DNA of 45,797 nt from positions 1-45,797 of the forward strand of contig JAOTWF010000014.1 in the NCBI GenBank assembly GCA_029863005.1, read 5' to 3'. The notes beneath the pieces were generated by a model. The model was not told where the DNA came from, did no database searches, and saw only the letters and a list, made by a program, of their open reading frames with translations. Every line of letters begins with the position of its first letter. Positions within the stretch are counted from its first letter, which is position 1. The stretch is from Gammaproteobacteria bacterium. Its GTDB lineage: Bacteria; Pseudomonadota; Gammaproteobacteria; Acidiferrobacterales; Sulfurifustaceae. Below are positions 1 through 40,790 of this stretch, piece by piece. The translations under genes were made by a program, and so were the position numbers.

Positions 1-1179
1 CCGTGCAATATCCAATGAGACGCCGTCCACCGCTTTGACGTGGCCCACGACCCGCTTAAACACCCCTTTGTGGATCGGGAAGTGCACCTTGAGATCGTGC
101 ACCTGCAGCAGCGTTTCACCAGCCTTGCTTGTTTTCGGCGATGGGGGCCTGCCTGTTTCCCGGCGTGAGACCGGCGCGGCCACCGGGACGGACGCCGTGG
201 GATCGTACAAATGACAGCGCACTCCCCGCCCGGCTTTGTCAATCCAGGCGGGAAGTTTCATGCGACAAAGCTCCCAAGCAAGATCGCAACGCTCGACAAA
301 CCGGCAGCCACGAAATTCCTGATTCAGCGACGGAACGCTGCCCCGAATGACTTCGAGCGTATTGCCGCGCTGTATCCGCCCCGGTATGGAGCGGAAGAGT
401 TTTTGCGAATAGGGATGTTGCGGGGATGAAAAAAACTTCTTCTGCGGTGCGAGCTCCACAATTTGCCCGGCATACATGACCGCCACCCGGTCGGCCATCT
501 CGGCCACGACACCGAGGTCGTGCGTGATGAGCAGGATGGCCATGCCCGTTTTCTTTTGTAGCTCCCGGAGTAAGGCCAAGATCTGCGCCTGGATGGTGAC
601 GTCAAGCGCCGTCGTCGGCTCATCGGCAATCAGCAAATCTGGCTCGGACGTGAGCGTCATGGCGATCATGACGCGCTGTTTCATGCCGCCGGAGAGCTGA
701 AACGGATATTCGTCGTAGCGCCGCGCGGCATCGGCAATGCCCACGGCCTTGAGCAGTTCGGCCACCTTGGCCCTCTTTTGCCCACGACTGAGTTTGTCAC
801 CCCCGGGGATAGCCTCGCTGATTTGCTCGCCCACCGTCAGCACGGGATTGAGCGAGGTTTGTGGCTCCTGAAATATCATGGCCATGCGACGTCCGCGAAT
901 AGTGCGCATGTCCCGCTCGGGCAGTGCCAGGACGTCTTGCCCACGCAGCTGCGCTTGTCCCGAGACGATTCTCCCCGCTGGCTCCGGCACCAATTGCAAC
1001 AACGACAGCGCAGAGATGGACTTCCCGCAACCGGATTCGCCGAGCAAAGCCAGCGTCTCGCCAGAGGCGATGTGGAAGTCAATTCCATCTACCGCGCGTA
1101 CCGTTCCCTCGGGGGTGTCAAACCAGGTCTTGAGGTTTTCAACCTTAAGCAAGTTTTCGCTCGCGGCGATCTTTTTCAT
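1..1179 (-). CDS. yejF: peptide ABC transporter, double ATP-binding protein (YejF-like), 3' end cut by window edge
   Basis: Reads open from an ATG at 1177-1179 for 393 codons and runs off the left edge. The first ATPase domain is complete: Walker A GESGCGKS at about residues 47-54, Q-loop FQEP, signature LSGGM at 162-166, Walker B LLIADEP at 182-188 and switch His220. It is followed by the cysteine-containing C-terminal tail typical of oligopeptide/dipeptide importers. A second ATPase domain starts near residue 355 and is truncated. Fused tandem ATPases are typical of YejF and differ from separate DppD/DppF. The start overlaps the yejE stop in an ATGA, so the two are translationally coupled. 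It would power uptake of peptides (YejABEF imports microcin C in E. coli); the real substrate is unknown. Confidence 0.93.
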
Positions 1180-2576
1180 TTTCTCAGCCTCGGATCAAAG
1201 GCATCGCGTACGGCATCAGAAAACAGATTGGCCGCCAGCACCAAGGCGAACATAAACACGAACGCCGCCGTCAGGCTCCACCAGACGATGGGCTCGCGCG
1301 CCATCTCGAGCCGCGCGCTCACGATCATATTGCCCCAGCTGTTCATGGTCGGGTCAACACCAACGCCTACATACGCCAGCACCGCCTCAGCCAGCACCAA
1401 TCCGCTGAAATCCAGCACAACCGTAATCAGGATAATATGCATGACGTTGGGCAGGATATGGCGTGCCATGACTGTCGCGTGGCTCGCGCCCAGCGCCCGG
1501 GCCGCCTGGATGAAATCCACTTCGCGCAATTTGAGTGTCTCACCTCGCAGCAAGCGGCAAAGGCTGGTCCAGCTGGTGACGCCGAGGATCAAACACAGAA
1601 ATAACAACCGGGTATCCGCGCGCTGAGTGGTGCTGGTGAACGATTCGGGATTGGTTTCGATATACAACTGCAGGCTCAGAATGGCCGCGGCGATCAAAAG
1701 CACGCCGGGAATCGAACTCAAGGTGGTATAAACGTACTGGATGACGTCATCCACCCAGCCACGAAAGTATCCGGCCATGATGCCAAACAAAGCAGCGAAC
1801 GGAAGCATGACGAGCGTGGTCAGCGTGCCGATCACGAGGCCGGTGCGAATACTCTTAAGCGACTTGTAAAACACATCCTGCCCGGCTTGGTCTGTCCCGA
1901 AAATATGATAAGTGAGCGACAGGTAACCGGCATTCGTTGCCAACATTATCAGTATTCCCACGGTAATCAGGACAGTGCGCCAGGGTATATCGCCCTCGCC
2001 GCGCATCAATCTGCCTGCTGCCTGCGCCAACGTCTCTTCCCTTTTCTGCCGGATCAGCAAAAATCCTCCCACGAGCAACAGCCAGAACCCCAAACCGGCC
2101 AGGGTGGCGGTTCCTGCCCGAGAGGCAATATCCCCGCCGCGCTCTGCTTCATTTTTCAGGTGAGCACCACCGTAAAGCAGGCGCGGGTATTCGCGCGCAT
2201 GCCGCCCGTCTGGGTATTCCACGGTTTCCTTGGTGTAGGCCTGCATGGCGAACGGCGCGGAATAGGTTTTTTCCGTGCGCGCGCGCAAGGGCATCGCAAC
2301 CTTGTCCAGCAGACTCAACTCCACATTGGAATAAACCGGTTCACCCGAATTCTGTCGGTCTTGCAATGGTCGGTAATGGATGGAATCCATCAGGCCGATC
2401 ACCACGTAAGCGCACAAAATGACCAGTGAAGCCATGGCCAAGGGACGGCGCGCCACCTGGCGCCAAGGTACACGCAAATGCTCGTGGCGCAAGGTATAAA
2501 CGCCAAACGCCAAGATGGATCCCATCAATACAAATATCAGGAAGTCGGTCCACAATATTTCGATCTGGAATGGCAT
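1176..2576 (-). CDS. yejE: peptide ABC transporter permease (YejE-like), long form
   Basis: A 466-residue inner-membrane permease. The C-terminal 270 residues carry the binding-protein-dependent permease fold: the FGTDQAGQDVF segment that opens the domain, several membrane helices, and the cytoplasmic EAA-type loop (RALGASHATVMARHILPN) that docks on the ATPase. It ends in the VRDAFDPRLR tail seen in the DppC/YejE family. E. coli YejE has about 341 residues; here the extra N-terminal 130 or so residues add about three hydrophobic segments and a polar stretch between them. Starts 4 bases after the yejB stop and overlaps yejF by 4 bases, so it sits in one operon. Family assignment is firm; substrate is inferred from E. 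coli. Confidence 0.92.
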   Translation of the reverse strand: MPFQIEILWTDFLIFVLMGSILAFGVYTLRHEHLRVPWRQVARRPLAMASLVILCAYVVIGLMDSIHYRPLQDRQNSGEPVYSNVELSLLDKVAMPLRARTEKTYSAPFAMQAYTKETVEYPDGRHAREYPRLLYGGAHLKNEAERGGDIASRAGTATLAGLGFWLLLVGGFLLIRQKREETLAQAAGRLMRGEGDIPWRTVLITVGILIMLATNAGYLSLTYHIFGTDQAGQDVFYKSLKSIRTGLVIGTLTTLVMLPFAALFGIMAGYFRGWVDDVIQYVYTTLSSIPGVLLIAAAILSLQLYIETNPESFTSTTQRADTRLLFLCLILGVTSWTSLCRLLRGETLKLREVDFIQAARALGASHATVMARHILPNVMHIILITVVLDFSGLVLAEAVLAYVGVGVDPTMNSWGNMIVSARLEMAREPIVWWSLTAAFVFMFALVLAANLFSDAVRDAFDPRLRK

Positions 2577-2580
2577 TCTG

Positions 2581-3558
2581 TCACTCGAAGCGAACGCGCG
2601 GATCCACCAGCGTGTAGGTGATGTCGGTCAAGATCAGGCCTACGATGTACAGCACCGAACCCAGGAAAACCATGGCGCGCACGATGGCAAAGTCTTGCGA
2701 ATGGATGGCATCGATGGTGTAACTGCCCAAACCAGGAATAGAGAAGAAGGATTCAAGAATGAGGCTTCCGGTAAAAAGCAGCGGAATGACCACTACCACT
2801 CCGGTAAGAATCGGAATCATGGCGTTCTTGAGCACATGGCGGAACAGCACGCGCAGCTCGGACAGTCCTTTGGCGCGGGCGGTGCGCACGTAATCCTTGT
2901 TGATCTCCTCGAGAAAAAAGGTACGGTACAATCGTGTGCTGGCGCCGATACCACTGATCACACCGACTATTATCGGAAGTACCAGGAATTTGATGGCATC
3001 CCATCCCACGTCATAGCCCGAGATAGGCCACAAACGCAGAAGTAAACTAAGCAGGTACTGCCCACCAATGACATAAAAAAGCGATGAAATTGACATCATC
3101 GCTACGCACAACACCACACCAGAGGTGTCTAGATAGGAGCCACGGAAAAATGCCAGCAACATCGCGAAAGTAATTTGCACAAATATTCCAACAATAAAAA
3201 TCGGCAGCGCTATGGCTAGACTGGGCCACATGCGCTGAGAAATGTCGTATCCGATATCACGGCCTTGGTCAGAACGACCAAAATCGAATACAAAAAGCTT
3301 CAAGGAATGGCGGACAAAAATGGTGTCGGTGAGTTTTTCCATTCCGGGTTTGCTGCCGTGGTAAAGCAGCGGTTTGTCGTAACCACGGTCTTCCTTCCAC
3401 TTGACGATGGCCTCGGGCGTAACCCGTTTCACACCGAGATGAAGACGTGCCATGTCATCCGGACTGTTGACGAAAAAGAACAACACGAAAGTAAGCAGGT
3501 TCACCCCTATCAAAATCGGGATGGCATAGGTCACGCGGCGGATGATGTAGCCGATCAT
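2581..3558 (-). CDS. yejB: peptide ABC transporter permease (YejB-like)
   Basis: A 325-residue DppB/YejB-type permease. It starts with the classic MIGYIIRRVTYAIPILIGV helix, has about six membrane segments, and carries the docking loop TARAKGLSELRVLFRHVLKN. It ends with TDITYTLVDPRVRFE, the usual last helix and tail of this family. The ATG overlaps the stop of the substrate-binding protein gene by 4 bases (3555-3558), and yejE follows after 4 bases, so the genes form one transcription unit. It pairs with YejE to make the membrane channel. Nothing looks truncated. Confidence 0.94.
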   Translation of the reverse strand: MIGYIIRRVTYAIPILIGVNLLTFVLFFFVNSPDDMARLHLGVKRVTPEAIVKWKEDRGYDKPLLYHGSKPGMEKLTDTIFVRHSLKLFVFDFGRSDQGRDIGYDISQRMWPSLAIALPIFIVGIFVQITFAMLLAFFRGSYLDTSGVVLCVAMMSISSLFYVIGGQYLLSLLLRLWPISGYDVGWDAIKFLVLPIIVGVISGIGASTRLYRTFFLEEINKDYVRTARAKGLSELRVLFRHVLKNAMIPILTGVVVVIPLLFTGSLILESFFSIPGLGSYTIDAIHSQDFAIVRAMVFLGSVLYIVGLILTDITYTLVDPRVRFE

Positions 3559-5729
3559 CGGCGTCGGGCCCGTTCTTTTCTTCGATAGGTGACGATCGCC
3601 GGCAACGCGCCTGCCGCCAGCACCCCCAGCACCAGGGCCACGGGCCAGATCACCGGGCGATTCCAGGCCGCGCGCAACTCCTCGCGTTTGACCGGATCAA
3701 GACGGACGTATTTTAGCGTGTTGTTCGCCATGTTGTGTGGCTTGGTGTTGGACATCCAGGCATGCTCGAGCAAAAACTGCTTGGGGTGCATGCCCCAAAT
3801 CCAGGGGGCGTCACGCCGGGCGATGTCGATCATCTGGTCGATTATTGCCTGCCGTTCGGGGGTGTTCTCCATATTCTTCATTCGCTCGAACAGGCGGTTG
3901 AATGCCGGGTTATCGTAGTTCGAGGCATTTTCACCATTTTCCCCGACTTTCTTGTTCGGCCCGTAGAGCAAAAAAAGGAAATTTTCCGGGTCGGGATAAT
4001 CCGCGTTCCAGCCCCAGTCGAAGATCTGCGCGTCGCCCTTGCGCATCTTTTCCTGGAAGCGGTTGTAATCGGTGGCTCGCACCACCAGCTGGATGCCAAG
4101 CTTCTTGAATTGTTTGAGCATCCAGTCGAGCTGAGCCTTGCGTTCCGGGCCAATGGCCGGTGTTTCGTAGTTGATCGAAAGTGAGTTACCAGTCGCGGCA
4201 TTCACACCGTCCGGGTATCCCGCCTCCTTCAGCAACTGGCGCGCATATTCAATTGGCTTGCGCCGAGGCTTGCCTTCCGCCCAATCGTAGACATACGGAT
4301 TGATGCCGGCTCTCCCCTCGCGGTACCCAAAGATGCCCGGCGCCAGTGGGCCCTGTGCAGCGATCCCGCGGCCGTTCTCGAAGATGGTAATCTGCTCCTC
4401 GAAGTCCACCGCGATCGATATAGCCTGGCGCAACTTGCGCGCCCGTTCGGTATACCCCCCGACCACCGGATCGAGCATGTTGAAGCCAAGGTAATAAGTC
4501 GAGGCGGCCACGCTGGTCAGCAACCGGATGCCTTTTTCTTTCATCGTGTCGCTGACATCAGTATCGCCCTCACTGGTGAAGCGGATGGCCTGGTCGAAAC
4601 CTTCCGGCTGCACCCCAGATCGATCGTAGTAACCTTGCAGAAATTTGTTCCAGCGCGGAATACTTTCCTTGTCCAGGTTGAAGATGACTTTATCGATGAA
4701 GGGCAAGCGCTGGCCCGCATCCAGTAACAATCCAGACGGGCCGTCACCCGGTTCGCCTTCGGTGGGATAAGATTCCTCGTGATAGTTCGGATTGCGCTCC
4801 ATTACCATCTGACGGTTGGGATTGTTGACGGTCAACGTGTAGGCGCCACTGCCGACGGGGTACCAATCGAGCGTGATATTTTTATCCGCCATGCCGGGCT
4901 GGGAGAAAAATCGGTCCACTTCTGGTGCCATCGGGGCGAAAAACGGCATCGCCATCCAGTAAAGCAGTTGCGGGTATTTACCATGAAGTTTCACACGATA
5001 GGAGTAGCGGTCCACCGCTTCCGCGCCGGCGAGCGGGAATTTTGAAAGATCGAGATAAACCCCAGAATCGCGTCCAACGGCGATTTCATCATGGGCCTGC
5101 TTCAGGGTCGTCGCGTACTCTTTCATCCCCACGATGTAATCGTTCATAACGCTCAAGATCGGGGAATGCAGCTTGGGATGGGCCAGGCGTTTGATCTGGT
5201 ACACGTAGTCAGCGGCGACCAGTTCGCGCGTGCCGGTGTGGGGGAAATCACCAATAGCACGCAGCCCCTCGATATCTCTCGGGCTCAAATCATGATAGAG
5301 ATACCGACCGTCGGCATCGCGCGCGAAAGCCGGATGCGGTTGATAGAGAATGCCGGGGCGAATCCGGATCTCATAGACGCTAAAGGCGATTGCCTCAGGA
5401 GAAGCATCGCGTGGCAGGCGGTGGCCTTGTTTGTCGAGATAGATGGGCATGGGAACGGACTCCGCCGTGAGCGGGATCAGCGTGTACGGCCGTTTCAGAT
5501 AGTGATATTGAAACGGAGGCTCGTAGATTTGCGCAATGAAAAGATATTCATTGGAACTGTAGGAACGCGCGGGATCGAAGGTTTTGGGGCGCTCGCGAAA
5601 GGCGGAATAAAGGATATTTTTTCCGGCATCCTCTTCCGGATAAGGATTGTTCCAGGAAGCTGCGGCAGCACTGGACGCAAAGAAAGAAATGGCCAGTAAA
5701 AGGATGCGTATCGCGTCGGGGCGTTTCAT
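3555..5729 (-). CDS. yejA: extracellular peptide-binding protein of the Yej-type ABC importer, with C-terminal membrane anchor
   Basis: A 724-residue family-5 extracellular solute-binding protein. An N-terminal signal peptide (hydrophobic core ILLLAISFFASSAAAA) is followed by the binding-protein body, including a segment like GSGAYTLTVNNPNRQMVMERN and a C-terminal lobe with IDQMIDIARRDAPWIWGMHP. It is longer than E. coli YejA (about 600). The last 35 residues hold a clear membrane helix (about 693-715) followed by an arginine/lysine-rich end, so the protein is probably held in the inner membrane. This is unusual for a gammaproteobacterial binding protein. First gene of the yejABEF-type operon; its promoter must lie in 5730-5966, shared with the divergent fabI. 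Confidence 0.9.
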   Translation of the reverse strand: MKRPDAIRILLLAISFFASSAAAASWNNPYPEEDAGKNILYSAFRERPKTFDPARSYSSNEYLFIAQIYEPPFQYHYLKRPYTLIPLTAESVPMPIYLDKQGHRLPRDASPEAIAFSVYEIRIRPGILYQPHPAFARDADGRYLYHDLSPRDIEGLRAIGDFPHTGTRELVAADYVYQIKRLAHPKLHSPILSVMNDYIVGMKEYATTLKQAHDEIAVGRDSGVYLDLSKFPLAGAEAVDRYSYRVKLHGKYPQLLYWMAMPFFAPMAPEVDRFFSQPGMADKNITLDWYPVGSGAYTLTVNNPNRQMVMERNPNYHEESYPTEGEPGDGPSGLLLDAGQRLPFIDKVIFNLDKESIPRWNKFLQGYYDRSGVQPEGFDQAIRFTSEGDTDVSDTMKEKGIRLLTSVAASTYYLGFNMLDPVVGGYTERARKLRQAISIAVDFEEQITIFENGRGIAAQGPLAPGIFGYREGRAGINPYVYDWAEGKPRRKPIEYARQLLKEAGYPDGVNAATGNSLSINYETPAIGPERKAQLDWMLKQFKKLGIQLVVRATDYNRFQEKMRKGDAQIFDWGWNADYPDPENFLFLLYGPNKKVGENGENASNYDNPAFNRLFERMKNMENTPERQAIIDQMIDIARRDAPWIWGMHPKQFLLEHAWMSNTKPHNMANNTLKYVRLDPVKREELRAAWNRPVIWPVALVLGVLAAGALPAIVTYRRKERARRR

Positions 5730-5966
5730 GCTTCCTGACTGCGTCCTCCCACCATGTCCATTGTGTCGGAAAAGAGTGCCGACGGCACCATCAATATATC
5801 AAATTCCTTTGCCTACTCCCTCTTCCCGCGAACGTGGATTTTCGCTACTGTAGCGGCAAATAGTTGCTGGATGCGCTCGATATCTGCAAGGCACATCCCG
5901 ATTTGAACCAATAAGTCGGTGGAGAACGTTGATGAATGACAAGACGAGCAAAGCAGGGCTACGTTA

Positions 5967-6767
5967 ATGGGGTTTCTGGCAGGCAAGCGGGCGTTGATAG
6001 TGGGCGTAGCGGGAGATCGGTCTATCGCCTGGGGAATCGCCAAGGCCATGCACCGGGAAGGCGCCGAGATTGCCTACACCTATCAGAACGAAAAATTGCG
6101 GGAACGGGTCGCGAAGCTTGCAGCCCAGACCAAGTCCGACATCCTGATTCCCTGTGATGTCTCGAGCGACGAACAGATCGAAGCCGTGTTCACCCACCTG
6201 GATGATTTCTGGGATGGACTGGATATCATCGTGCACTCCGTCGCCTTCGCCTTGCGCGAACAGTTGTCTGGTAACTTTGTGGACGTCACGACACGCGAGG
6301 GGTTCCGTGTCGCACATGAGATCAGCTCTTTCAGCCTCACGGCGCTGGCCAAGGCCGGTCGCGCCATGATGCAGGGCCGCCAAGGCTCAATGTTGACGCT
6401 GACTTACATTGGCGCGGAGCGCTCCGTTCCGAACTACAACATCATGGGGCTCGCGAAAGCCAGCCTCGAAGCTAACGTGCGCTACCTGGCACAGGCGCTC
6501 GGCCCGGAGGGAATCCGCGTCAACGCGATTTCCGCCGGCCCAATCCGAACACTTGCCGCGGCCGGGATCACTGATTTCAAGAAACTATTGGACTACAACG
6601 ACAAAATGGCGCCGCTCGGGCGCGGCGTGACCATCGAAGAAGTGGGAAACGTGGCGGCGTTTTTGTGCTCGGATCTCGCCTCCGGTATCACGGGTGAGAT
6701 CACCTACGTGGATGGCGGATTCAATACTATTGCCATTGGACTCGACTACGCCAAGCTGCTGGAATAA
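5967..6767 (+). CDS. fabI: enoyl-[acyl-carrier-protein] reductase (NADH), FabI
   Basis: Reduces the trans-2-enoyl-ACP double bond, the last step of each fatty-acid elongation round. 266 residues, near the E. coli length of 262. Visible features are the FabI nucleotide site [13 protein letters not shown] (13-25), the catalytic pair Tyr157 and Lys164 in [10 protein letters not shown], Tyr147 in TYIGA, the [10 protein letters not shown] substrate loop and the DGGF C-terminal motif. The residue matching E. coli Gly93 is alanine (HSVAFA), as in many Gram-positive FabI proteins. The start has a modest AGGG 8 bases upstream. It stands alone on the plus strand, divergent from the peptide transporter and converging on ppiD with only 6 bases between the stops. 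Confidence 0.97.
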
Positions 6768-6773
6768 TACCGA

Positions 6774-8660
6774 TCAAAGCTGATCGGGATAGATCTTGAT
6801 ATCCGCGTTCTGCCGCAATCCAGACCGGTAGTTCGTGAAGTACTCATTACCCCGTCGTGCCTCAAGCATCTCGCGAATCTTTTTCTCCAGATCAGCACTC
6901 TGCTTCGACGTGGCGTTACGTACGCGAGTCAGCGCCATCAGCGCATAACCCCGTTTGTCCAGGTCGACCAGGTCATAAACCGGTTTATCTCCTTCGGGAC
7001 GCTTTGAACGGAAAACGTGATCCACGAGGCGAGAATCCACCCCAGCGGCTTCCTGGCGAGAAATCATTCTCGGCGGCTGCCATTTCAAACCGCGTTTTGC
7101 GGCAATGGTATTGAGCGATCCGCCGGCACGGGCTTCGCGCAATATTTCATCACCGATCTCGCGGGACTGCTGCTGCGCTCGCTCCTGCTTCAGCAGAAGC
7201 TCGATTTGTGGACGCACTTCCGTAAGCGGTTTGCGGCCGGCGGGACGACGGTCGGCCACGCGTATGGCCACCAAGGTATCGGCACTGATATCGATGGCAT
7301 CACTATTGCGCGTCTGGCTCAGCACATCCGGTTCGAAAGCGGCCTGCACGACCTTAGGGTTCGCGGCGATCCCGGCCCCACCGGCAAGGGTAAACCAGTC
7401 GCTCTTCTGAATCTCAAGCCCGAGCGCTTTAGCGGCCGGGACAAGACTATCCGGCTGCTCGTAAACAAGATTGCGTAACTTCTCCGTTTTGTCAAAAAAT
7501 ACTTCCTCGCCCTTCCGACGGCGGATGATGTCAACCAGCTCTTTTCGAACCTCGGCAAGCGGTTTACGTTTTTCCGGTGTGTGCGCAGTGAGTTTGATCA
7601 CGTGATATCCGTAGAGGCTGCGCACGGGTTGACTGACTTCACCCGGTTTCAGCGTGAATATTGCGTCCTCGAGTTCTTTGGGCAATACGCCACGACGGAT
7701 TTCACCCAGATCTCCTCCCAGTGGTGACGTCGTGGTGTCCTCGGAATATTTCTTGGCCAAGCCGGCGAAATCCGAACCGCTTCGGGCCTGTTTGGCGATT
7801 TCCTGAATTTTGGCGAAAGCTTCTTTAGACTTTTCATCGCCAGCCTGTGAAGGCAGGGTAATCAGGACATGGCTAGCGCGGCGTTTTTCAAGAGTCACGT
7901 AGCGGGCCGCCTCTTCGGCATAGACCCTGTTCAATTCCTCATCCGAAGGTTGATAATTTTGATTCTGGTCGGCAGCGGAAAGGCGCAGGTACTCGATACG
8001 CACTTGTTCAGGGAACTGAAACATCTCGGGATGTGCTGAATAGTACTTTTCGATGTCGGCCGACGTGAGCGTAATCTTGGCCATCTGCGGCTCGATGCCG
8101 ATCAGAACAAATGCGATTTCCCGCTCTTGTGACAACAGGCGCGCGATTTCAGCAATTTCGGATTGGGTGATGATTCGGCTTTCACTGATGCCGGCCTGAA
8201 GGTGGGTGACAAGAATTTCATCGCGCACCCTGGCTTCAAACAGCTTCGGGCTCAAGCCTTCCCGACGCAGCAAGGCCTCGTACAGGCTCGCGTCGAATTT
8301 CCCGTCACGCTGAAAATTGGGCTGATTCCGTATAATTTCAGCCAACTGCACATTGCCGACACGATAGCCCTGAAGCTCGGCATTCCGAATAATCAGCGCC
8401 TGGTCAATCATATTGCTGAGAATGGACTGTTTGAATTGGGGATTATTGAGGGTTTTCGGCTCCACCTTTCCACGCAGCCGATCGATTTCGTTGCGGAAAT
8501 CATTCTGGGTGATGTCCATGCCATTGACCTTGGCGATATTGATCTGGCCCCCGGTATCAAAATAAGAGTTAACACCCCATAGTGCAAACGGAATGGCAAT
8601 CAAAGCGACAATAAAAGCAGCAATGATCCCCTGGGTTTTTTCACGGATGGCGGTAAGCAT
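6774..8660 (-). CDS. ppiD: periplasmic folding chaperone / parvulin-type peptidyl-prolyl isomerase, PpiD
   Basis: A 628-residue protein anchored by one N-terminal helix (about 12-34), with the rest in the periplasm. The SurA-like N-terminal chaperone region (about 35-200) contains the FRNEIDRLRG and SNMIDQALI stretches. A complete parvulin domain follows (about 262-365), recognisable from ASHVLITLP, the GGDLGEIRRGVLPKELEDA block and the YGYHVIKL end. A long C-terminal chaperone part follows. It helps newly exported proteins leave the Sec translocon and fold. Length matches E. coli PpiD (623). It follows hupB and two tRNAs, as in Pseudomonas and, without the tRNAs, E. coli. No strong ribosome binding site is visible at the ATG. 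Confidence 0.94.
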   Translation of the reverse strand: MLTAIREKTQGIIAAFIVALIAIPFALWGVNSYFDTGGQINIAKVNGMDITQNDFRNEIDRLRGKVEPKTLNNPQFKQSILSNMIDQALIIRNAELQGYRVGNVQLAEIIRNQPNFQRDGKFDASLYEALLRREGLSPKLFEARVRDEILVTHLQAGISESRIITQSEIAEIARLLSQEREIAFVLIGIEPQMAKITLTSADIEKYYSAHPEMFQFPEQVRIEYLRLSAADQNQNYQPSDEELNRVYAEEAARYVTLEKRRASHVLITLPSQAGDEKSKEAFAKIQEIAKQARSGSDFAGLAKKYSEDTTTSPLGGDLGEIRRGVLPKELEDAIFTLKPGEVSQPVRSLYGYHVIKLTAHTPEKRKPLAEVRKELVDIIRRRKGEEVFFDKTEKLRNLVYEQPDSLVPAAKALGLEIQKSDWFTLAGGAGIAANPKVVQAAFEPDVLSQTRNSDAIDISADTLVAIRVADRRPAGRKPLTEVRPQIELLLKQERAQQQSREIGDEILREARAGGSLNTIAAKRGLKWQPPRMISRQEAAGVDSRLVDHVFRSKRPEGDKPVYDLVDLDKRGYALMALTRVRNATSKQSADLEKKIREMLEARRGNEYFTNYRSGLRQNADIKIYPDQL

Positions 8661-8720
8661 GAGGCGGCTACTTTACTGGGGCTCCGTATGAGCATCAAAT
8701 CGGATGTAATGTTGATTCAG

Positions 8721-8751
8721 TAAACGAAAGGGCGAGGAATGAGCCTCGCCC
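8721..8751 (-). terminator. intrinsic terminator after tRNA-Asp
   Basis: On the minus strand an 8-bp perfect GGGCGAGG/CCTCGCCC stem (plus positions 8730-8737 and 8744-8751) with a 6-base loop is followed by TTTCGTTTA. It lies just past the 3' end of tRNA-Asp and before ppiD, so it probably ends the hupB/tRNA transcript and gives ppiD its own promoter. Confidence 0.6.
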
Positions 8752-8766
8752 GGCATGCATAGTTAA

Positions 8767-8843
8767 TGGCGGAGCGGACGGGACTCGAACCCGCGACCCC
8801 CGGCGTGACAGGCCGGTATTCTAACCAACTGAACTACCGCTCC
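8767..8843 (-). tRNA. tRNA-Asp (GTC)
   Basis: 77 bases including the encoded CCA. The 7-bp acceptor stem GGAGCGG/CCGCTCC is intact, with a D arm GTTCAGTTGGTTAGAAT, anticodon loop containing GTC, and T arm GCGGGTTCGAGTCCCGT. Nearly identical to E. coli tRNA-Asp. Probably processed from a transcript shared with tRNA-Val 8 bases upstream. Confidence 0.98.
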
Positions 8844-8851
8844 CGGTCTCT

Positions 8852-8927
8852 TGGTGGGTGCTGAGGGGCTCGAACCCCCGACATTCGCCTTGTAAGGGCG
8901 ACGCTCTACCAACTGAGCTAAGCACCC
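8852..8927 (-). tRNA. tRNA-Val (TAC)
   Basis: 76 bases including CCA. Acceptor stem GGGTGCT/AGCACCC, D arm TAGCTCAGTTGGTAGAGC, anticodon stem CGCCCTTACAAGGGCG with anticodon TAC, and T loop TTCGAGC. It lies between hupB and tRNA-Asp on the same strand; only 28 bases separate it from the hupB stop, so co-transcription with hupB is likely. Confidence 0.98.
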
Positions 8928-8955
8928 GGAGGCGAAACGACCCCCAAAGGGGCGG

Positions 8956-9228
8956 CTAGTTTAAGGCATCCTTCAGGCCTTTGCCAGACTTGAATTTGGG
9001 TGCCTTCGAGGCCGGGATGGTAATCAACTCACCGGTGCGGGGATTGCGTCCGGTGCGAGCCGACCGGTTGCTGACGGAAAATGTTCCAAAACCGGAAAGT
9101 GTCACGGAGTCACCATCGCGCAACGTATTAGCGATGGTGTCCAGTACCGCCTCAACGGCACGAGCGGCGGATGCCTTGTTGAGTTCAGTAGATACAGCAA
9201 CTCTATCGATCAGATCGGTTTTATTCAC
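8956..9228 (-). CDS. hupB: DNA-binding protein HU, beta type
   Basis: A 90-residue histone-like protein that bends DNA and compacts the nucleoid. Starts MNKTDLIDRVA and contains the diagnostic GFGTFSVSNRSARTGRNPRTG arm followed by IPASKAPKFKSGKGLKDALN, all at the expected places; full length for the family. The start is GTG at 9226-9228, chosen because a strong AAGGAG Shine-Dalgarno lies 4 bases upstream (complement of 9233-9238) and because it gives the standard HU N-terminus. Lies between lon and the tRNA-Val/tRNA-Asp pair. Confidence 0.97.
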   Translation of the reverse strand: MNKTDLIDRVAVSTELNKASAARAVEAVLDTIANTLRDGDSVTLSGFGTFSVSNRSARTGRNPRTGELITIPASKAPKFKSGKGLKDALN

Positions 9229-9453
9229 GTTAGCTCCTTGCAGGTTGTGGTGAACAGGTACCCGAAAAGCCAATGCTGCTGAGACCAAACGGCACGCCCG
9301 GAAAATCCAAGACGTGTCGCAGGTTTTATACAAGCGTGGAAAATCGTTGTCAAGAAAGATATACACGGCGCGGTATATCGAAACATCGCGTCGTGCACTT
9401 CAAAGACATCAGGAACATCTCCCTCGCATGAAGGGGAACACGCCGCTTCGCCG

Positions 9454-11901
9454 TCAGTGTGTTCGTACTGGCTTGGCGGCGTCGTGCGGTTCAGGAGGCT
9501 TGGCAGCCTCCGCGAGCTTCGACTCGTCCAGCGGCTCGGGTATGTGCTCGAGCGCTGCTTCCAGAACCTGATCGATCCATCTTACAGGACGGATATCCAG
9601 ACTGTCACGGATGTTTTTCGGTATTTCCGTGAGGTCCTTGCGGTTCTCCTCCGGGATCAATACCACTTTGAGATTGCCGCGATGGGCCGCGAGCAGTTTC
9701 TCCTTGAGACCGCCAATAGGAAGGACCTCCCCGCGCAGCGTGATCTCACCGGTCATGGCCACCTCGGCGCGTACCGGAATCTTGGTTAGTGCCGAAACCA
9801 TGGCAGTGCACATGGCAATGCCGGCGCTCGGACCGTCCTTGGGTGTGGCACCCTCGGGAACATGGACGTGAAAATCATGCTTCTGGTAAAAATCCGGCAT
9901 GATGCCCAATTTTATCGCGCGTGAGCGCACAACACTCATGGCCGCCTGGATGGATTCCTGCATGACATCCCCGAGCTTGCCGGTGATGGTGAGCTTGCCC
10001 TTGCCGGGGACGATAGTCGACTCGATGGTGAGCAATTCACCGCCGACTTCGGTCCATGCCAAACCCGTGACCTGGCCGACCTGATTGCTCTGCTCGGCGG
10101 TGCCATACCGGAAACGTCGCACGCCAAGATACTTTTCCAGGCCTTTGGGCGTAATGGAAACCACTTTTTCCGCCTTATCCTTCAGGAGCAGCAGGTACTT
10201 GGTGACTTTGCGGCAGATCTTGGCGATCTCACGCTCAAGATTTCGCACACCCGCTTCTCGCGTGTAATAACGGACGATGTCGCGGATCGTCTTTTCCGAT
10301 AAATGCAGTTCTTTATCCTTAAGTCCGTTGTTTTTGAGTTGTTTAGGAATAAGGTAGCGAATGGCGATGTTCACTTTCTCGTCCTCGGTATAGCCCGATA
10401 GACGGATGACCTCCATGCGATCCAGCAAGGGGGGCGGAATATTCAGCGTATTGGCAGTGGCCACGAACATGACATCCGACAGGTCGTAATCGACCTCAAG
10501 ATAATGATCGTTGAACGCATGGTTCTGTTCAGGATCCAGAACCTCCAGCAATGCGGAGGAAGGATCACCACGAAAATCCATGGCCATTTTGTCCACTTCG
10601 TCCAACATGAAAAGCGGATTGCGCACCTTCACCTTGGAAAGGTTCTGAATAATCTTTCCCGGAAGGGAGCCAATGTAAGTACGGCGATGGCCGCGGATTT
10701 CTGCCTCGTCACGCACGCCACCGAGCGACATGCGCACGAACTTGCGGTTCGTGGCGCGCGCGATTGACTGACCGAGAGAGGTTTTGCCGACACCCGGCGG
10801 GCCGACTAGGCACAGGATCGGGCCTTTGAGTTTAACCACGCGCTGCTGTACCGCCAGATATTCAAGAATACGTTCCTTGACCTTATCGAGCCCGTAGTGA
10901 TCCGCTTCCAGAATTTCCTCAGCTTTGCTGAGATCCTTCTGGATCTTGCTGCGCTTTTTCCACGGAACGTTGAGGAGCCAGTCAATGTAATTGCGCACGA
11001 CGGTGGCCTCAGCCGACATCGGCGACATCATTTTCAGCTTCTTCAGTTCGGACTCGGCCTTTTCGCGGGCTTCCTTGCTCATGCCCGCCTTTTCAATCTT
11101 CTTCGCCAACTCCTCGGCCTCGTTCGGGCCGTCTTCGAGCTCGCCCAGTTCCTTCTGGATCGCCTTCATTTGCTCGTTGAGATAGTACTCACGCTGACTT
11201 TTCTCCATCTGGCGCTTGACGCGACCGCGGATACGCTTTTCAACCTGCAACAGGTCGATTTCGCTCTCAAGTACGGCGAGTATTTTTTCCAGGCGTTCAC
11301 GCACATCCTGAACCTCCAGGATCTGCTGCTTGTCTTCAATCTTGAGTGACAAATGCGCCGCCACCGTGTCCGCGAGGCGGCTCGGATCATCAATGCCCGC
11401 GAGCGAAGTAAGAATCTCGGGAGGAATTTTCATGTTGAGCTTGACGTACTGGTCAAACTCATTCAGCACGGAGCGCATGAGCGCCTCGCCTTCCTTGTCC
11501 GTGAGTGGCAAGGCTTCGAGCAACGCCACTTGGGCGGAGAAGTAATCTTCCGTTTCAAGATATTTTTGCAGCACCGCGCGGCGTTCACCCTCCACCAGGA
11601 CTTTAACGGTGCCGTCCGGCAGTTTCAGTAATTGCAAGATGCTGGCAATGGTGCCGATGGTGTGGATGTTATCCGTCGTCGGATCATCGTCCGAGGCGCT
11701 CTTCTGCGCCACCAGCATGATTTGCTTGCCGGATTCCATGGCCTGTTCCAGGGCGCGAATGGATTTACGCCGGCCGACGAACAATGGAATGACCATGTGC
11801 GGGAACACGACGACGTCGCGCAACGGAAGAACCGGAAGATTTGTCTCCGATCCAGATACGATCACGGCTCGTTTGGTTTCTGGCATTAGCGCTTTAATCA
11901 C
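9454..11901 (-). CDS. lon: ATP-dependent protease Lon
   Basis: Cytoplasmic AAA+ serine protease that degrades misfolded and regulatory proteins. 815 residues against 784 in E. coli; the extra length is at both ends. The N-terminal substrate domain begins at [20 protein letters not shown]; the AAA+ module has Walker A GPPGVGKT (about 367) and MLDEVDKM; the protease domain has the catalytic Ser in [12 protein letters not shown] and the Lys in [13 protein letters not shown]. The GTG at 11899-11901 and an ATG at 11884-11886 are both possible starts; neither has a clear ribosome binding site. The C-terminal 25 residues are proline- and glutamate-rich and lineage-specific. Probably heat-shock controlled (see candidate promoter upstream). 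Confidence 0.96.
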
Positions 11902-36834: not shown

Positions 36835-37641
36835 TCAAGGCCGCTTCGCTTCCGCCAACACCCAGGCGATGCCCACTCCCGCCATAAAAGAGGAATTTTT
36901 CTTCACCAACGGGCTGTCGTCAAAGGCGGCGCCGGACAGTTGATCATAGCGCGCAAACGCGCCGACCCAGAAACTCCGGAAACGCCGGTTGGCCGTGATC
37001 GTCAAGCGGCTGCCGCTGTACCCGCTTGTGGCATCGTAAGCAGGACGCGTCGGCGTGGCAAAATCTGGCGTCACCTCGTAGAAGTAGTCATGATATTTTT
37101 CCGACGCATAGAGGGGACCGGCCGACGCTCTCAGATCCCATCCCCTCTGGCGCATTTCATAATGGAGGCTGGGAGCGAAAACCCAGCCAATTTCATCATA
37201 ATGCGCAAGATCGGTAGCGACCGCGATGCGCCAGGGCAGTCGAATCGACCAGGATTGATCATGAAAGCTGTCGCGTGACATGGTGATTTCGAGCAAGGGT
37301 CCCACCTCAACCGTCGGGTCTATGTCCGGCATCCCGCTTCGGGCCATATTGTCGTCGCTGCGTGCCGGTGGTCCGGCACTCACGCTCAGCTCGAGTCGGA
37401 GGCGATCGGAGCTGAACAACTTACCGCGCGCGCCCTCGCGATCGATCTGCAAGAACTTCCCGCGGTACTTGACGTAAGGCAAGGGAAACAGGTACGCACG
37501 CTGTTCATCAGATCCACGGTAATCGGGGAGGCTTAAACTGCCCACACCCAACCCCACTTCCCAAAGCGGCAATTCCCCGGCGCGTGCACTCGGCGCGGTC
37601 AGGCACAATGTCAGCAAGGTGAGAATATATAGTTGGCGCAT
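36835..37641 (-). CDS. MipA/OmpV-family outer-membrane protein
   Basis: 268 residues. A signal peptide (LYILTLLTLCLTAPSARAG) is followed by the MipA/OmpV opening WEVGLGVGSLSLPDYRGSDE and the LFPLPYVKYRGKFLQ segment; the rest is a beta-barrel with repeated aromatic strands. The family includes MltA-interacting protein and outer-membrane barrels tied to stress. I chose ATG 37639-37641 because AGGA lies 6 bases upstream; ATG 37645-37647 would add two residues. Longer in-frame starts upstream would destroy the signal peptide. Divergent from the TraB-like gene with 64 bases between. Confidence 0.88.
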   Translation of the reverse strand: MRQLYILTLLTLCLTAPSARAGELPLWEVGLGVGSLSLPDYRGSDEQRAYLFPLPYVKYRGKFLQIDREGARGKLFSSDRLRLELSVSAGPPARSDDNMARSGMPDIDPTVEVGPLLEITMSRDSFHDQSWSIRLPWRIAVATDLAHYDEIGWVFAPSLHYEMRQRGWDLRASAGPLYASEKYHDYFYEVTPDFATPTRPAYDATSGYSGSRLTITANRRFRSFWVGAFARYDQLSGAAFDDSPLVKKNSSFMAGVGIAWVLAEAKRP

Positions 37642-37705
37642 CGGCATTCCTAATATATTCTTGAGTTCATGGTAATCGGGCCTTCTTCCTGAAGCCATCC
37701 ATCCG

Positions 37706-38671
37706 ATGCGACGACATTTCGCCATCGACCCAGATATATCCACGGCGGTTCGCCGGTATCTTGTCGGTATTCTTCTTTCCTGCTTCCTGATCCTGCCGCT
37801 ATGGACGAGCGCGCCGCACGCGGCCCTCCCCGCGACAAAAAGTGCCGCGGACGTCACCCCCGAAACCGCCTCCCGTTTCACCAAAGGCCTGCTGTGGAAA
37901 ATCGAATCACCGAATATTCCGGCCAGTTACGTTTTTGGCACCATCCATTCGGATGACAAACGTGTCACCGCTTTGCCCGAACCGGTTTCCCGGTCACTGA
38001 ATGACGCCAAGCAGTTTGTCATGGAAGCCATCGTCGATGGCGATGCCCTGGTGAGCATGGCCGAGGTCATGTTTTTTAATGACGACCGTACCCTGGAACA
38101 GGTCATTGGCCAGAAACTTTACCGAGATACGAAGAAGGCATTGTCTGCGCGCGGCATGCCAACACAAGGTATCGAGAAGCAGAAACCCTGGGCGGTCATG
38201 ATGGCGCTGTCCATGCCGACCCCAAAGACCGGAGAATACCTCGATTTCGTGTTGCAGGCTCACGTGACCCGAATGAACAAGCCCGTTTCCGGTTTGGAGT
38301 CTATTGCCGAGCAACTTTCGGTATTCAATGATCTGTCCCTCTCTGACCAGATTGCATTGCTGGAAGATACTGTACGCGCACAATCGACTTTGGACCGTCA
38401 ATTCGAAGAGCTGCACCAGGCCTGGCTCGCCCGCGATCTGGGCGCCATCATGGCGCTCGCTGAAAAATACAAACCCGGCGACGACCGGCTATATTTCGAC
38501 GTCATGGATCGCCTGCTAAACCAGCGGAATCTACGCATGGTGGAGCGAATGGGGCCGATCCTCAAGGAAGGTAGCGCTTTCATCGCCGTGGGCGCCGCGC
38601 ACCTGCCGGGCGAAACGGGCCTGTTGTATCGCCTCGAGAAAGCCGGGTATCGTGTAAGGCCTGTATATTAA
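37706..38671 (+). CDS. TraB/GumN (TIKI-like) family protein, probable exported metalloprotease
   Basis: 321 residues. A hydrophobic signal segment lies at about 20-40. The TraB/TIKI fold is recognised from two GxxH motifs, YVFGTIHSDD near residue 77-86 and AVGAAHLPGE near the C-terminus, where the histidines are thought to bind metal, plus the conserved GLESIAEQLSVFNDLS and LLYRLEKAGYRVRPV parts. E. coli YbaP is related. Its activity is not established. No clear ribosome binding site is seen at the ATG. It opens a tight plus-strand run with the zinc peptidase and the ATP-grasp gene. Confidence 0.85.
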   Translation: MRRHFAIDPDISTAVRRYLVGILLSCFLILPLWTSAPHAALPATKSAADVTPETASRFTKGLLWKIESPNIPASYVFGTIHSDDKRVTALPEPVSRSLNDAKQFVMEAIVDGDALVSMAEVMFFNDDRTLEQVIGQKLYRDTKKALSARGMPTQGIEKQKPWAVMMALSMPTPKTGEYLDFVLQAHVTRMNKPVSGLESIAEQLSVFNDLSLSDQIALLEDTVRAQSTLDRQFEELHQAWLARDLGAIMALAEKYKPGDDRLYFDVMDRLLNQRNLRMVERMGPILKEGSAFIAVGAAHLPGETGLLYRLEKAGYRVRPVY

Positions 38672-38688
38672 CACTGTAAAAAACAACG

Positions 38689-38694
38689 AAGGAG
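38689..38694 (+). promoter_or_regulatory. strong Shine-Dalgarno AAGGAG in front of an ATC codon
   Basis: AAGGAG ends 6 bases before ATC at 38701-38703, an ideal initiation spacing. From that ATC the frame is open without a stop into the zinc peptidase and reads as a Lys/Arg-rich leader. The first conventional start in the frame is GTG at 38764, 70 bases after this site. Confidence 0.6.
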
Positions 38695-38763
38695 ACGCAC
38701 ATCGCTTCAAAAAAAAGGAAAAGTCGCAATAAGCCGCGCCGGAAAAAAACCGCGAAGCGACCC

Positions 38764-39774
38764 GTGACGACGTCCTGGACGCGCCGGTCCGACGAGCACC
38801 TGCTGGACACCCGGCTGTGCGACCTGGGGCTCACACTCAACGGCAGCAAGATGCAGAAAGAGGTCGAAGTCCTGTGGGACGAGTTGGCCCTTCGTGGATT
38901 TGCGTTCCGCCCGCACTGCTGGCTGTCGGACTGCTGGTTTTGCCCGGACGGTGTTCCTGGATTTGCCATCCCCTTCTACCTCGTGCATCCCCGGCTCATG
39001 CGCCTGGAAAAGGCGCACATGCTCGAATTCGACGGCACCACCACGGAGTCGCGCATGAAGCTGCTGCGTCACGAGACGGCACATGCGCTGGCCAACGCCT
39101 ACCGACTGCACCTGAAGCAAAGCTGGCGCCGCCGTTTCGGGCGCGCCAGCAAGGCCTATCCCGAGAGCTATCTGCCGCGCCCTTATAGCCGCAATTACGT
39201 GCTTCACCTGGATAACTGGTATGCCCAGAGCCACCCCGCCGAGGACTGGGCCGAAACCTTCTCCGTGTGGCTCGACCCGGGCTCGCGCTGGCGCGAGAAA
39301 TACCGCGACTGGCCGGCGCTCAAGAAACTTAATTACGTGGAAGAATTGATGAAGGAGATCATCGGCCACAAACCGCCGGTGCGCAGCAAGAAACAGGTTG
39401 ACTCGATCGTCACTTTGCGCCTGACGCTGCGCGAATACTTCGCGGAGAAGCAGACACGCCTGCAACAGGATTTGCCGCGCTTTCACGAGCAGCAGTTGCG
39501 GCAGATCTTCCCCGCGTCGGTCAGCCACAAGAACGAGCGCGCGGCGCACTTCGTGCGAAAAATGCGTCGCGAGGCCATCAATAGCGTGGCGCGCTGGACT
39601 TCCGAATCCCGGTATCGCATCAACCTGACCATCGATGACATGATTCATCGCTGCGAAGAAATGAACCTGCACGCCTCCCGCGACAAGGAGGAAACCAAGA
39701 CCGCGCTCATCGCCTCGCTGGTGATGCTCTACATGGGTTCACTGCGCAGCGGCATGTCGCGCCTGGCCATATGA
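38764..39774 (+). CDS. putative zinc-binding metallopeptidase (Peptidase_Mx type)
   Basis: 336 residues from the GTG at 38764. The zinc site is complete: HETAHALANAYRL (HExxH), followed by a third-ligand region AEDWAETFSVWLDPG about 60 residues later. The N-terminal part RLCDLGLTLNGSKM and RPHCWLSDCWFCPDGVPGFAIPFYL is typical of the putative zinc-binding peptidase family (PF15887, from memory). No signal peptide. The frame extends upstream without stop to 38680, with a Lys/Arg-rich 21-codon stretch and a strong AAGGAG placed for an ATC at 38701, so the true start may be there. Coupled to the ATP-grasp gene by ATGA overlap. Substrate unknown. Confidence 0.85.
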   Translation: MTTSWTRRSDEHLLDTRLCDLGLTLNGSKMQKEVEVLWDELALRGFAFRPHCWLSDCWFCPDGVPGFAIPFYLVHPRLMRLEKAHMLEFDGTTTESRMKLLRHETAHALANAYRLHLKQSWRRRFGRASKAYPESYLPRPYSRNYVLHLDNWYAQSHPAEDWAETFSVWLDPGSRWREKYRDWPALKKLNYVEELMKEIIGHKPPVRSKKQVDSIVTLRLTLREYFAEKQTRLQQDLPRFHEQQLRQIFPASVSHKNERAAHFVRKMRREAINSVARWTSESRYRINLTIDDMIHRCEEMNLHASRDKEETKTALIASLVMLYMGSLRSGMSRLAI

Positions 39775-40790
39775 AAAAGCTCCGCGTCATGATGGTGGTG
39801 CACTACACGCTGGTGCCCCCGGAAGACCTGAGCGACAAAAACGATCCGCGGATGGAGAAGTTCCGCACCGAGTACGACGTCAAAAATGCCCTCATGAGCC
39901 TCGGTCATGAAGTCCAGATCGTGGGTGTTTACGATGATCTCCTGCCGATCCGCAAGATGAACGAGGAATTCAAACCCCATATCGCGTTCAACCTTCTGGA
40001 GGATTTCGCCGGCAACAGCGCCTTCGATTATTACGTCGTCAGCTATTTTGAAATGATGCGTATCCCCTACACCGGATGTAACCCACGCGGCCTGCTGCTG
40101 GCACGCGACAAGGCGCTGACCAAGATGATCCTCACCTACCATCGCATCAGTGTTCCGGACTTCTATGTCTTCCGGCTCGGCCGCAAGATCAGCCGGCGGC
40201 GTAAGTTCACTTTTCCCTTGATCGTCAAATCATTGACCGAGGAAGGCTCGGTCGGAATCGCCCAGGCCTCCTACGTGGAGAATGAGGACCAGTTACGCGA
40301 ACGCGTGGCACTTATTCACGACAAGCTTCATGGCGATGCCATTGCTGAGCAGTACATCGACGGGCGCGAACTGTATGTCACGGTTCTCGGCAATAGTAAG
40401 CTCGAGGTCCTACCCATCCGCGAGCTGGTATTCGACAACGTTGAACCAGGGACACCCAGAATGGCGACCTACGCGGTTAAATGGGACGACAAGTATCGCG
40501 AGCGCTGGGGCATCGAATACCAGTTCGCCCGCACCTTGCCAAATGGCATGGAGGAGCGCATCCAGCACCTGTGCAAGCGCGTTTATCACCTGCTCGATAT
40601 GAATGGCTATGGGAGGGTCGACCTGCGGCTCACGGCCGACGGAGAAATCTACGTGATTGAAGCCAATCCCAACCCCGGCATCGCCCGCGACGAAGACTGC
40701 ACGCATTCCGCCATCAAGGCCGGGATGAACTATGACGACTTCATTCAGCGCATTATCCATCTGGGTTCGACCTACCGGACCATCGAATAG
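39771..40790 (+). CDS. ATP-grasp ligase, D-alanine-D-alanine ligase-like
   Basis: 339 residues. ATP-grasp fold: N-terminal domain (about 1-105), nucleotide lid with FPLIVKSLTEEGSVGIAQAS (about 145-165), EQYIDGRELYVTVLG, and the metal/phosphate motif YVIEANPNPGIARDED near residue 300, as in the Ddl group. Ddl enzymes end ENxNPGMT; here it is EANPNPGIA, so it is a relative with perhaps another amide or ester product. It overlaps the zinc peptidase stop by 4 bases, implying a shared pathway in which one forms and the other cuts a peptide-like bond. Not a standard ddl: no mur or fts genes are nearby. Confidence 0.85.
   Translation: MKKLRVMMVVHYTLVPPEDLSDKNDPRMEKFRTEYDVKNALMSLGHEVQIVGVYDDLLPIRKMNEEFKPHIAFNLLEDFAGNSAFDYYVVSYFEMMRIPYTGCNPRGLLLARDKALTKMILTYHRISVPDFYVFRLGRKISRRRKFTFPLIVKSLTEEGSVGIAQASYVENEDQLRERVALIHDKLHGDAIAEQYIDGRELYVTVLGNSKLEVLPIRELVFDNVEPGTPRMATYAVKWDDKYRERWGIEYQFARTLPNGMEERIQHLCKRVYHLLDMNGYGRVDLRLTADGEIYVIEANPNPGIARDEDCTHSAIKAGMNYDDFIQRIIHLGSTYRTIE

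Follow-up and report, generated by a model that had tools for sequence, protein, structure and literature searches.

Among the closest described systems, the RimK/RimB system (RimABK), which is involved in polyglutamylation of ribosomal protein S6, likewise combines an ATP-grasp amide ligase with a protease encoded alongside it; RimB removes the glutamates added by RimK and also stimulates RimK (PMC11957791). The Anbu operon, encoding a circularly permuted ATP-grasp protein, an Alpha-E protein, a transglutaminase-like protein and the proteasome-like Anbu, was described in two publications, neither of which mentions a zinc metallopeptidase, as a system predicted to serve peptide synthesis or tagging (PMC5666114, PMC6376114). 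Furthermore, a protease and an ATP-grasp protein are encoded in one operon in the RloA-RloB-RloC system of Pseudomonas aeruginosa (PMC12239564). In this study, a peptidase gene and a ligase gene located in a stretch of 45,797 nucleotides (assembly GCA_029863005.1, contig JAOTWF010000014.1; hereafter referred to as the window) of a gammaproteobacterial genome were analyzed.

The pair in the window belongs to this general kind of ligase-protease association, but lacks the defining features of RimK/RimB, the Anbu operon and RloA/RloC. The protease RimB is an aspartic enzyme of the retropepsin-like type, and RimK represents an ATP-grasp subfamily of its own, whereas the proteins of the window are an HExxH zincin and a ligase of the Ddl fold. 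In the RloA-RloB-RloC system, the aspartic protease is secreted and the transglutaminase-like protein is located in the membrane, and protease and ATP-grasp protein are members of other families. D-Ala-D-Ala ligase (Ddl) has the fold and the ATP site in common with the window ligase, but the residues binding its substrates are replaced in the latter. The Anbu operon resembles the pair in combining an ATP-grasp ligase with hydrolases and, in the genomes sampled, is usually accompanied by a classical Peptidase_Mx protein as well; it differs in its circularly permuted ATP-grasp protein, its Alpha-E, Anbu and DUF2126 partners and its zinc-ribbon peptidase, none of which is part of the window pair.

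In Gammaproteobacteria, nine of 12 loci encoding classical Peptidase_Mx also feature a circularly permuted ATP-grasp protein, an Alpha-E protein, a proteasome-like protein or a DUF2126 amidoligase. Since classical Peptidase_Mx proteins are thus encoded beside the ATP-grasp ligases of Anbu operons, this peptidase superfamily has two links to amidoligases. The genome harboring the window itself has an Anbu-type locus on its contig 82 (positions 1-11000), where a classical Peptidase_Mx with zinc ribbon is encoded together with a circularly permuted ATP-grasp protein and a proteasome-like protein.

The initial annotation of the locus stated that no described pathway comprises these genes. This holds for the exact pair, for which no paper was found in the literature searched (which did not include the survey of amidoligases that Iyer and colleagues published in 2009), but not for the kind, since RimK/RimB, RloA/RloC and the Anbu operon are known. 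The pair is real and widely conserved, and it is probably undescribed.

Arrangement of the locus and translation start of the peptidase gene

Three open reading frames are located on the plus strand, and the labels initially given to them are each backed by Pfam, with stronger support for the TraB-like and ligase labels and weak support, covering the model in part, for the peptidase label. The first gene (37706-38671) encodes a protein of the TraB/PrgY/GumN family (PF01963, TraB_PrgY_gumN, 1.8e-61). It is followed by the gene of a zinc metallopeptidase (38701-39774, counted from a probable ATC start) and by that of a Ddl-fold ATP-grasp ligase (39771-40790; PF07478, Dala_Dala_lig_C, 1.5e-30). 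The distances reported in the initial annotation were reproduced: the TraB-like stop codon ends at 38671 and the Shine-Dalgarno sequence AAGGAG of the peptidase gene (38689-38694) begins at 38689, so that exactly 17 bases lie between them, and peptidase and ligase genes overlap by ATGA at 39771-39774, which represents a translational-coupling geometry. The reported motifs GTIH, GAAH, HETAH (as RHETAH) and EANPNPGI are likewise all present. Scans for promoters and terminators near the genes yielded nothing usable. Upstream of the pair, a divergently oriented MipA-family outer membrane gene (36835-37668, minus strand) is located; many genomes of the order share this arrangement, including those lacking the TraB-like gene.

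The first in-frame ATG, GTG or TTG of the peptidase gene is the GTG at 38764, which is located 69 bases past the ribosome binding site, and the codon at the right spacing from AAGGAG is an ATC at 38701. AAGGAG is identical in each of the nine genomes that represent the genus (loci L003-L011); the codon in frame exactly 6 bases further on is ATC in eight of them and ATT in one (L008), and no ATG, GTG or TTG start is common to these genomes. Moreover, the first canonical start would truncate the conserved domain at its N-terminal side in two cases (L004 and L010). In the nine genomes, the peptidase gene hence appears to start at ATC or ATT. The infC gene of the window's genome likewise appears to have an ATC start, found in frame after GGAGG (L238:1477). 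In Escherichia coli, infC has an AUU start codon and is regulated by IF3. In analogy to this regulation, and because infC apparently starts with ATC here, translation of the pair may respond to IF3.

Conservation of the peptidase-ligase pair

The conserved unit is the pair of peptidase and ligase genes and not the trio. In Gammaproteobacteria, Planctomycetota, Bdellovibrionota, Omnitrophota and Acidobacteriota, the two genes were found side by side with their order preserved, and within the window's own order, the ligase gene was found beside the peptidase gene in the same order in all 26 peptidase-carrying loci. A first scan of named genomes had detected the pair in records of Planctomycetota, Omnitrophota, Bdellovibrionota, Acidobacteriota and Myxococcota. 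Subsequently, unbiased samples of 274 gammaproteobacterial, 119 planctomycetotal, 97 bdellovibrionotal and 78 omnitrophotal genomes were evaluated. Among the Gammaproteobacteria, 12 genomes encode the peptidase and 11 of these also the ligase, always in adjacent position; the twelfth peptidase gene lies at a contig end, where the start of the ligase gene is visible as a fragment. This co-occurrence in the 274 genomes is far beyond chance (Fisher p ~9e-19). In Planctomycetota, all 20 strong peptidase matches (>400 bits) are paired, and weaker relatives (<=330 bits) occur without paired ligase. Furthermore, 28 of 30 loci are paired in Bdellovibrionota (of the remaining two, one is truncated at a contig end and L161 represents a genuine exception) and eight of nine in Omnitrophota, the ninth being located at a contig end. 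Co-occurrence of peptidase and ligase beyond close relatives, the absence of which would have spoken against the system initially suggested, was thus found in several phyla. Loci containing one partner without the other are L039, L161 and L128-L130.

Based on 99 distinct pairs, the genes overlap by 4 bases in 58 cases and overlap or lie <=50 bases apart in 89. In some genomes of the genus (L007 and L029), about 210 bases between peptidase and ligase replace the 4-base overlap. Pairwise distance matrices of peptidases and ligases are correlated (r 0.76, compared with a maximum of 0.15 in 1000 permutations), a value to which shared species history contributes. In a FastTree tree, the ligases from pairs group into a single clade (support 0.91), within which one unpaired sequence is nested, and the peptidase tree indicates mostly clade-wise inheritance. 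Neighborhood comparison revealed no third gene recurring beside the pair across phyla, and the pair therefore represents a stand-alone module. The neighborhoods differ completely from phylum to phylum, so that the genomic context names no pathway. Anbu-type genes (circularly permuted ATP-grasp, Alpha-E, Anbu) were also not found to recur beside the pair, whose ligase is of the Ddl type.

A true three-gene system including the TraB/TIKI-like protein, as the initial annotation implied, would be in line with the tight packing of the genes in the window's genus and with a TraB-like gene adjoining the pair in 15 of the 26 loci of the order (1.5 kb flanks). Nevertheless, such a system is very improbable and was largely refuted by the neighborhood comparison: the TraB-like gene was not seen within 1.5 kb in the other 11 loci of the order, nor in any of 22 loci beyond these (L037-L058), many of which were inspected with 8 kb flanks. 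It is hence limited to part of the window's order and absent near pairs in other phyla. Moreover, the TraB-like protein is probably exported, as suggested by its hydrophobic N-terminus, whereas the pair looks cytosolic.

Predicted properties of the two enzymes

The peptidase is a distant relative of Peptidase_Mx (PF15887). The profile match reaches 28.6 bits (cut-off 27) and covers positions 90-164 of 236 only, and a sequence search of the PDB returned E-values of 0.03 or worse, so that fold comparison carried the assignment. In the AlphaFold2 model (pLDDT 86), residues 21-203 match gluzincin endopeptidases, and the C-terminal part (~200-336) was barely covered by the search. Matches included the lethal-factor catalytic domain (Z 9.9 over ~138 residues), Pro-Pro endopeptidases (Z 8.6) and 4l7a (Z 7.0), the structure of a Peptidase_Mx protein from Bacteroides; Z values of this size are modest, and a common fold does not demonstrate a function. 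The catalytic set H103, E104, H107, Y153 and E160 (numbered from the window GTG) shows no variation in 96 of 96 paired peptidases, and the core HExxH ... YAxxHPxEDxAE is common to these and to four classical Peptidase_Mx members. Structure 4l7a aligns Tyr and Glu at the positions of Y153 and E160, and the spacing of seven residues between Tyr and Glu equals that between the catalytic Tyr and the third zinc ligand in PPEP-1. The protein should accordingly be regarded as a predicted active zinc peptidase. The N-terminal zinc ribbon (PF10005) of the classical members L198 and L201 is absent from the window peptidase, and its N-terminus is rich in lysine and arginine, with no evident export signal. 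Distant relatives of the peptidase were also found on 28 viral contigs (IMG/VR), one of which (L210) carries a peptidase-ligase pair. Those of L211-L235 are unpaired and mostly reside inside longer open reading frames of up to ~740 codons; the viral relatives therefore do not explain the pair.

The ligase model (pLDDT 90) adopts the Ddl fold over its full length (Z ~32 over ~300 residues). The ATP/Mg residues K153, E193, E200, K237, R282, D284, E297 and N299 are present in 97 of 97 paired ligases. The substrate residues of Ddl, Ser150, Tyr216 and Ser281/Leu282 (E. coli DdlB numbering), are replaced by G/A159 in place of Ser150 and by E308/D309 in place of Ser281/Leu282, the latter being an acidic pair (Glu/Asp or Asp/Glu) across paired ligases; W238 at the position of Tyr216 is a match resting on the HMM alignment. 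The ligase fails the curated NCBIfam cut-offs for Ddl and Van proteins by a wide margin (best score 137.8 bits, cut-off 243). It also remains below the RimK Pfam cut-off (19.4 versus 21 bits), the Ddl family matching far better.

A separate, ordinary ddlB gene is located elsewhere in the same genome within a murC-murB-ddlB cluster. With this gene present, the substrate residues replaced and the ATP-binding residues kept, a role as the organism's only or housekeeping D-Ala-D-Ala ligase was rejected; the initial annotation had named such an identity as an outcome that would speak against a new system. Because the ATP/Mg residues are kept, the D-Ala positions are changed, the Ddl/Van cut-offs are failed and a separate ddlB exists, the ligase should join a carboxylate and an amine with ATP in an amide-type bond other than D-Ala-D-Ala. 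Judging from the acidic acceptor site, a free amino acid is unlikely as its second partner.

Proposed function and competing explanations

For the pair, a two-gene module is proposed, in which a cytosolic amide-bond writer acts together with a peptidase trimming or maturing the same peptide or protein; a probability of roughly one half is assigned to this reading. The ligase would convert a carboxylate into an acyl-phosphate with ATP and subsequently join it to an amine, as in Ddl-type ATP-grasp enzymes. Because the acceptor pocket is changed, the amine is suggested to be located on a peptide, a protein or a cationic molecule rather than on a free D-amino acid. The zinc peptidase would act on the substrate of the ligase by removing or trimming the added group, as RimB does with RimK products; alternatively, it may expose an end that the ligase then modifies. 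RimK/RimB and the proposed pair are thus alike in concept, but composed of unrelated parts. Strict gene order and overlapping genes suggest balanced co-translation of both proteins. That the chemistry is amide ligation, that both enzymes act on one substrate and that the target is a peptide or protein is inferred. The analysis turned up neither a substrate nor an acceptor protein or precursor peptide, which was counted against this reading together with the variable neighborhoods and the few loci with a single partner, and peptide, protein and small-molecule acceptors are indistinguishable by fold and motif evidence. The initial idea of a peptide-like product that is made and trimmed was therefore retained as the best reading with respect to the conserved ligase and peptidase, and dropped with respect to TraB as a second protease partner.

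A small peptide-like metabolite is the main rival. Accordingly, the ligase would produce a dipeptide or an amino acid-polyamine conjugate, and the peptidase would free a precursor from a peptide or degrade the product. The closest characterized relatives of the ligase are dipeptide-type ligases, and the acidic residues replacing the Ser/Leu that grip the carboxylate of the second D-Ala in Ddl would suit a cationic amine acceptor. Such a pathway is conceivable but rather doubtful, since the pair is not recurrently flanked by a transporter, tailoring enzyme, NRPS or regulator gene and a full-size endopeptidase-like fold would be unusual for metabolite trimming. A variant cell-wall precursor ligase of the D-Ala-D-X type with an accessory peptidase, serving for example wall remodeling or resistance, appears improbable: despite the full-length Ddl fold (Z ~32) and above-chance scores to Ddl and Van models, the ligase falls far below every NCBIfam Ddl/Van cut-off with its substrate residues replaced, no van- or mur-type gene recurs nearby, and the peptidase has no evident export signal.

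Equally improbable is a two-gene conflict or defense module of the toxin-antitoxin-like or anti-phage type. Neither PADLOC nor PHROGs matches were obtained, phage and plasmid records contained no match, defense genes do not recur nearby, and the mostly clade-wise inheritance of the peptidase argues against it, whereas two overlapping genes, their patchy distribution and the 28 viral contigs with distant peptidase relatives, one of them with a ligase, would fit. A known defense system and mobile-element cargo were rejected as candidates on the basis of the PADLOC result and of the phage and plasmid records, respectively.

The reading as amide-bond writer and peptidase may be extended to a phylum-spanning reversible modification, in which the Ddl-fold ligase would attach an amino acid or another carboxylate to an amine of a protein or peptide and the zincin would remove or trim it, with expression in the window's genus tied to initiation factor IF3 via the conserved AUC/AUU start. 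This extended version is put forward tentatively. Conserved pairs of amide ligase and protease, as in the case of RimK/RimB, have pointed to regulated modifications. The pair described here spans several phyla and combines a ligase fold mostly familiar from the synthesis of cell-wall dipeptides with a peptidase superfamily without assigned role, and it is small enough for direct testing. Since the Anbu operon comes with a related peptidase, solving the function of either the pair or the operon may explain the other.

Furthermore, two different Ddl-like ligase relatives are encoded in tandem, without a peptidase, in four planctomycetotal loci (L132, L134, L135 and L136), possibly representing a second kind of Ddl-like ligase module.
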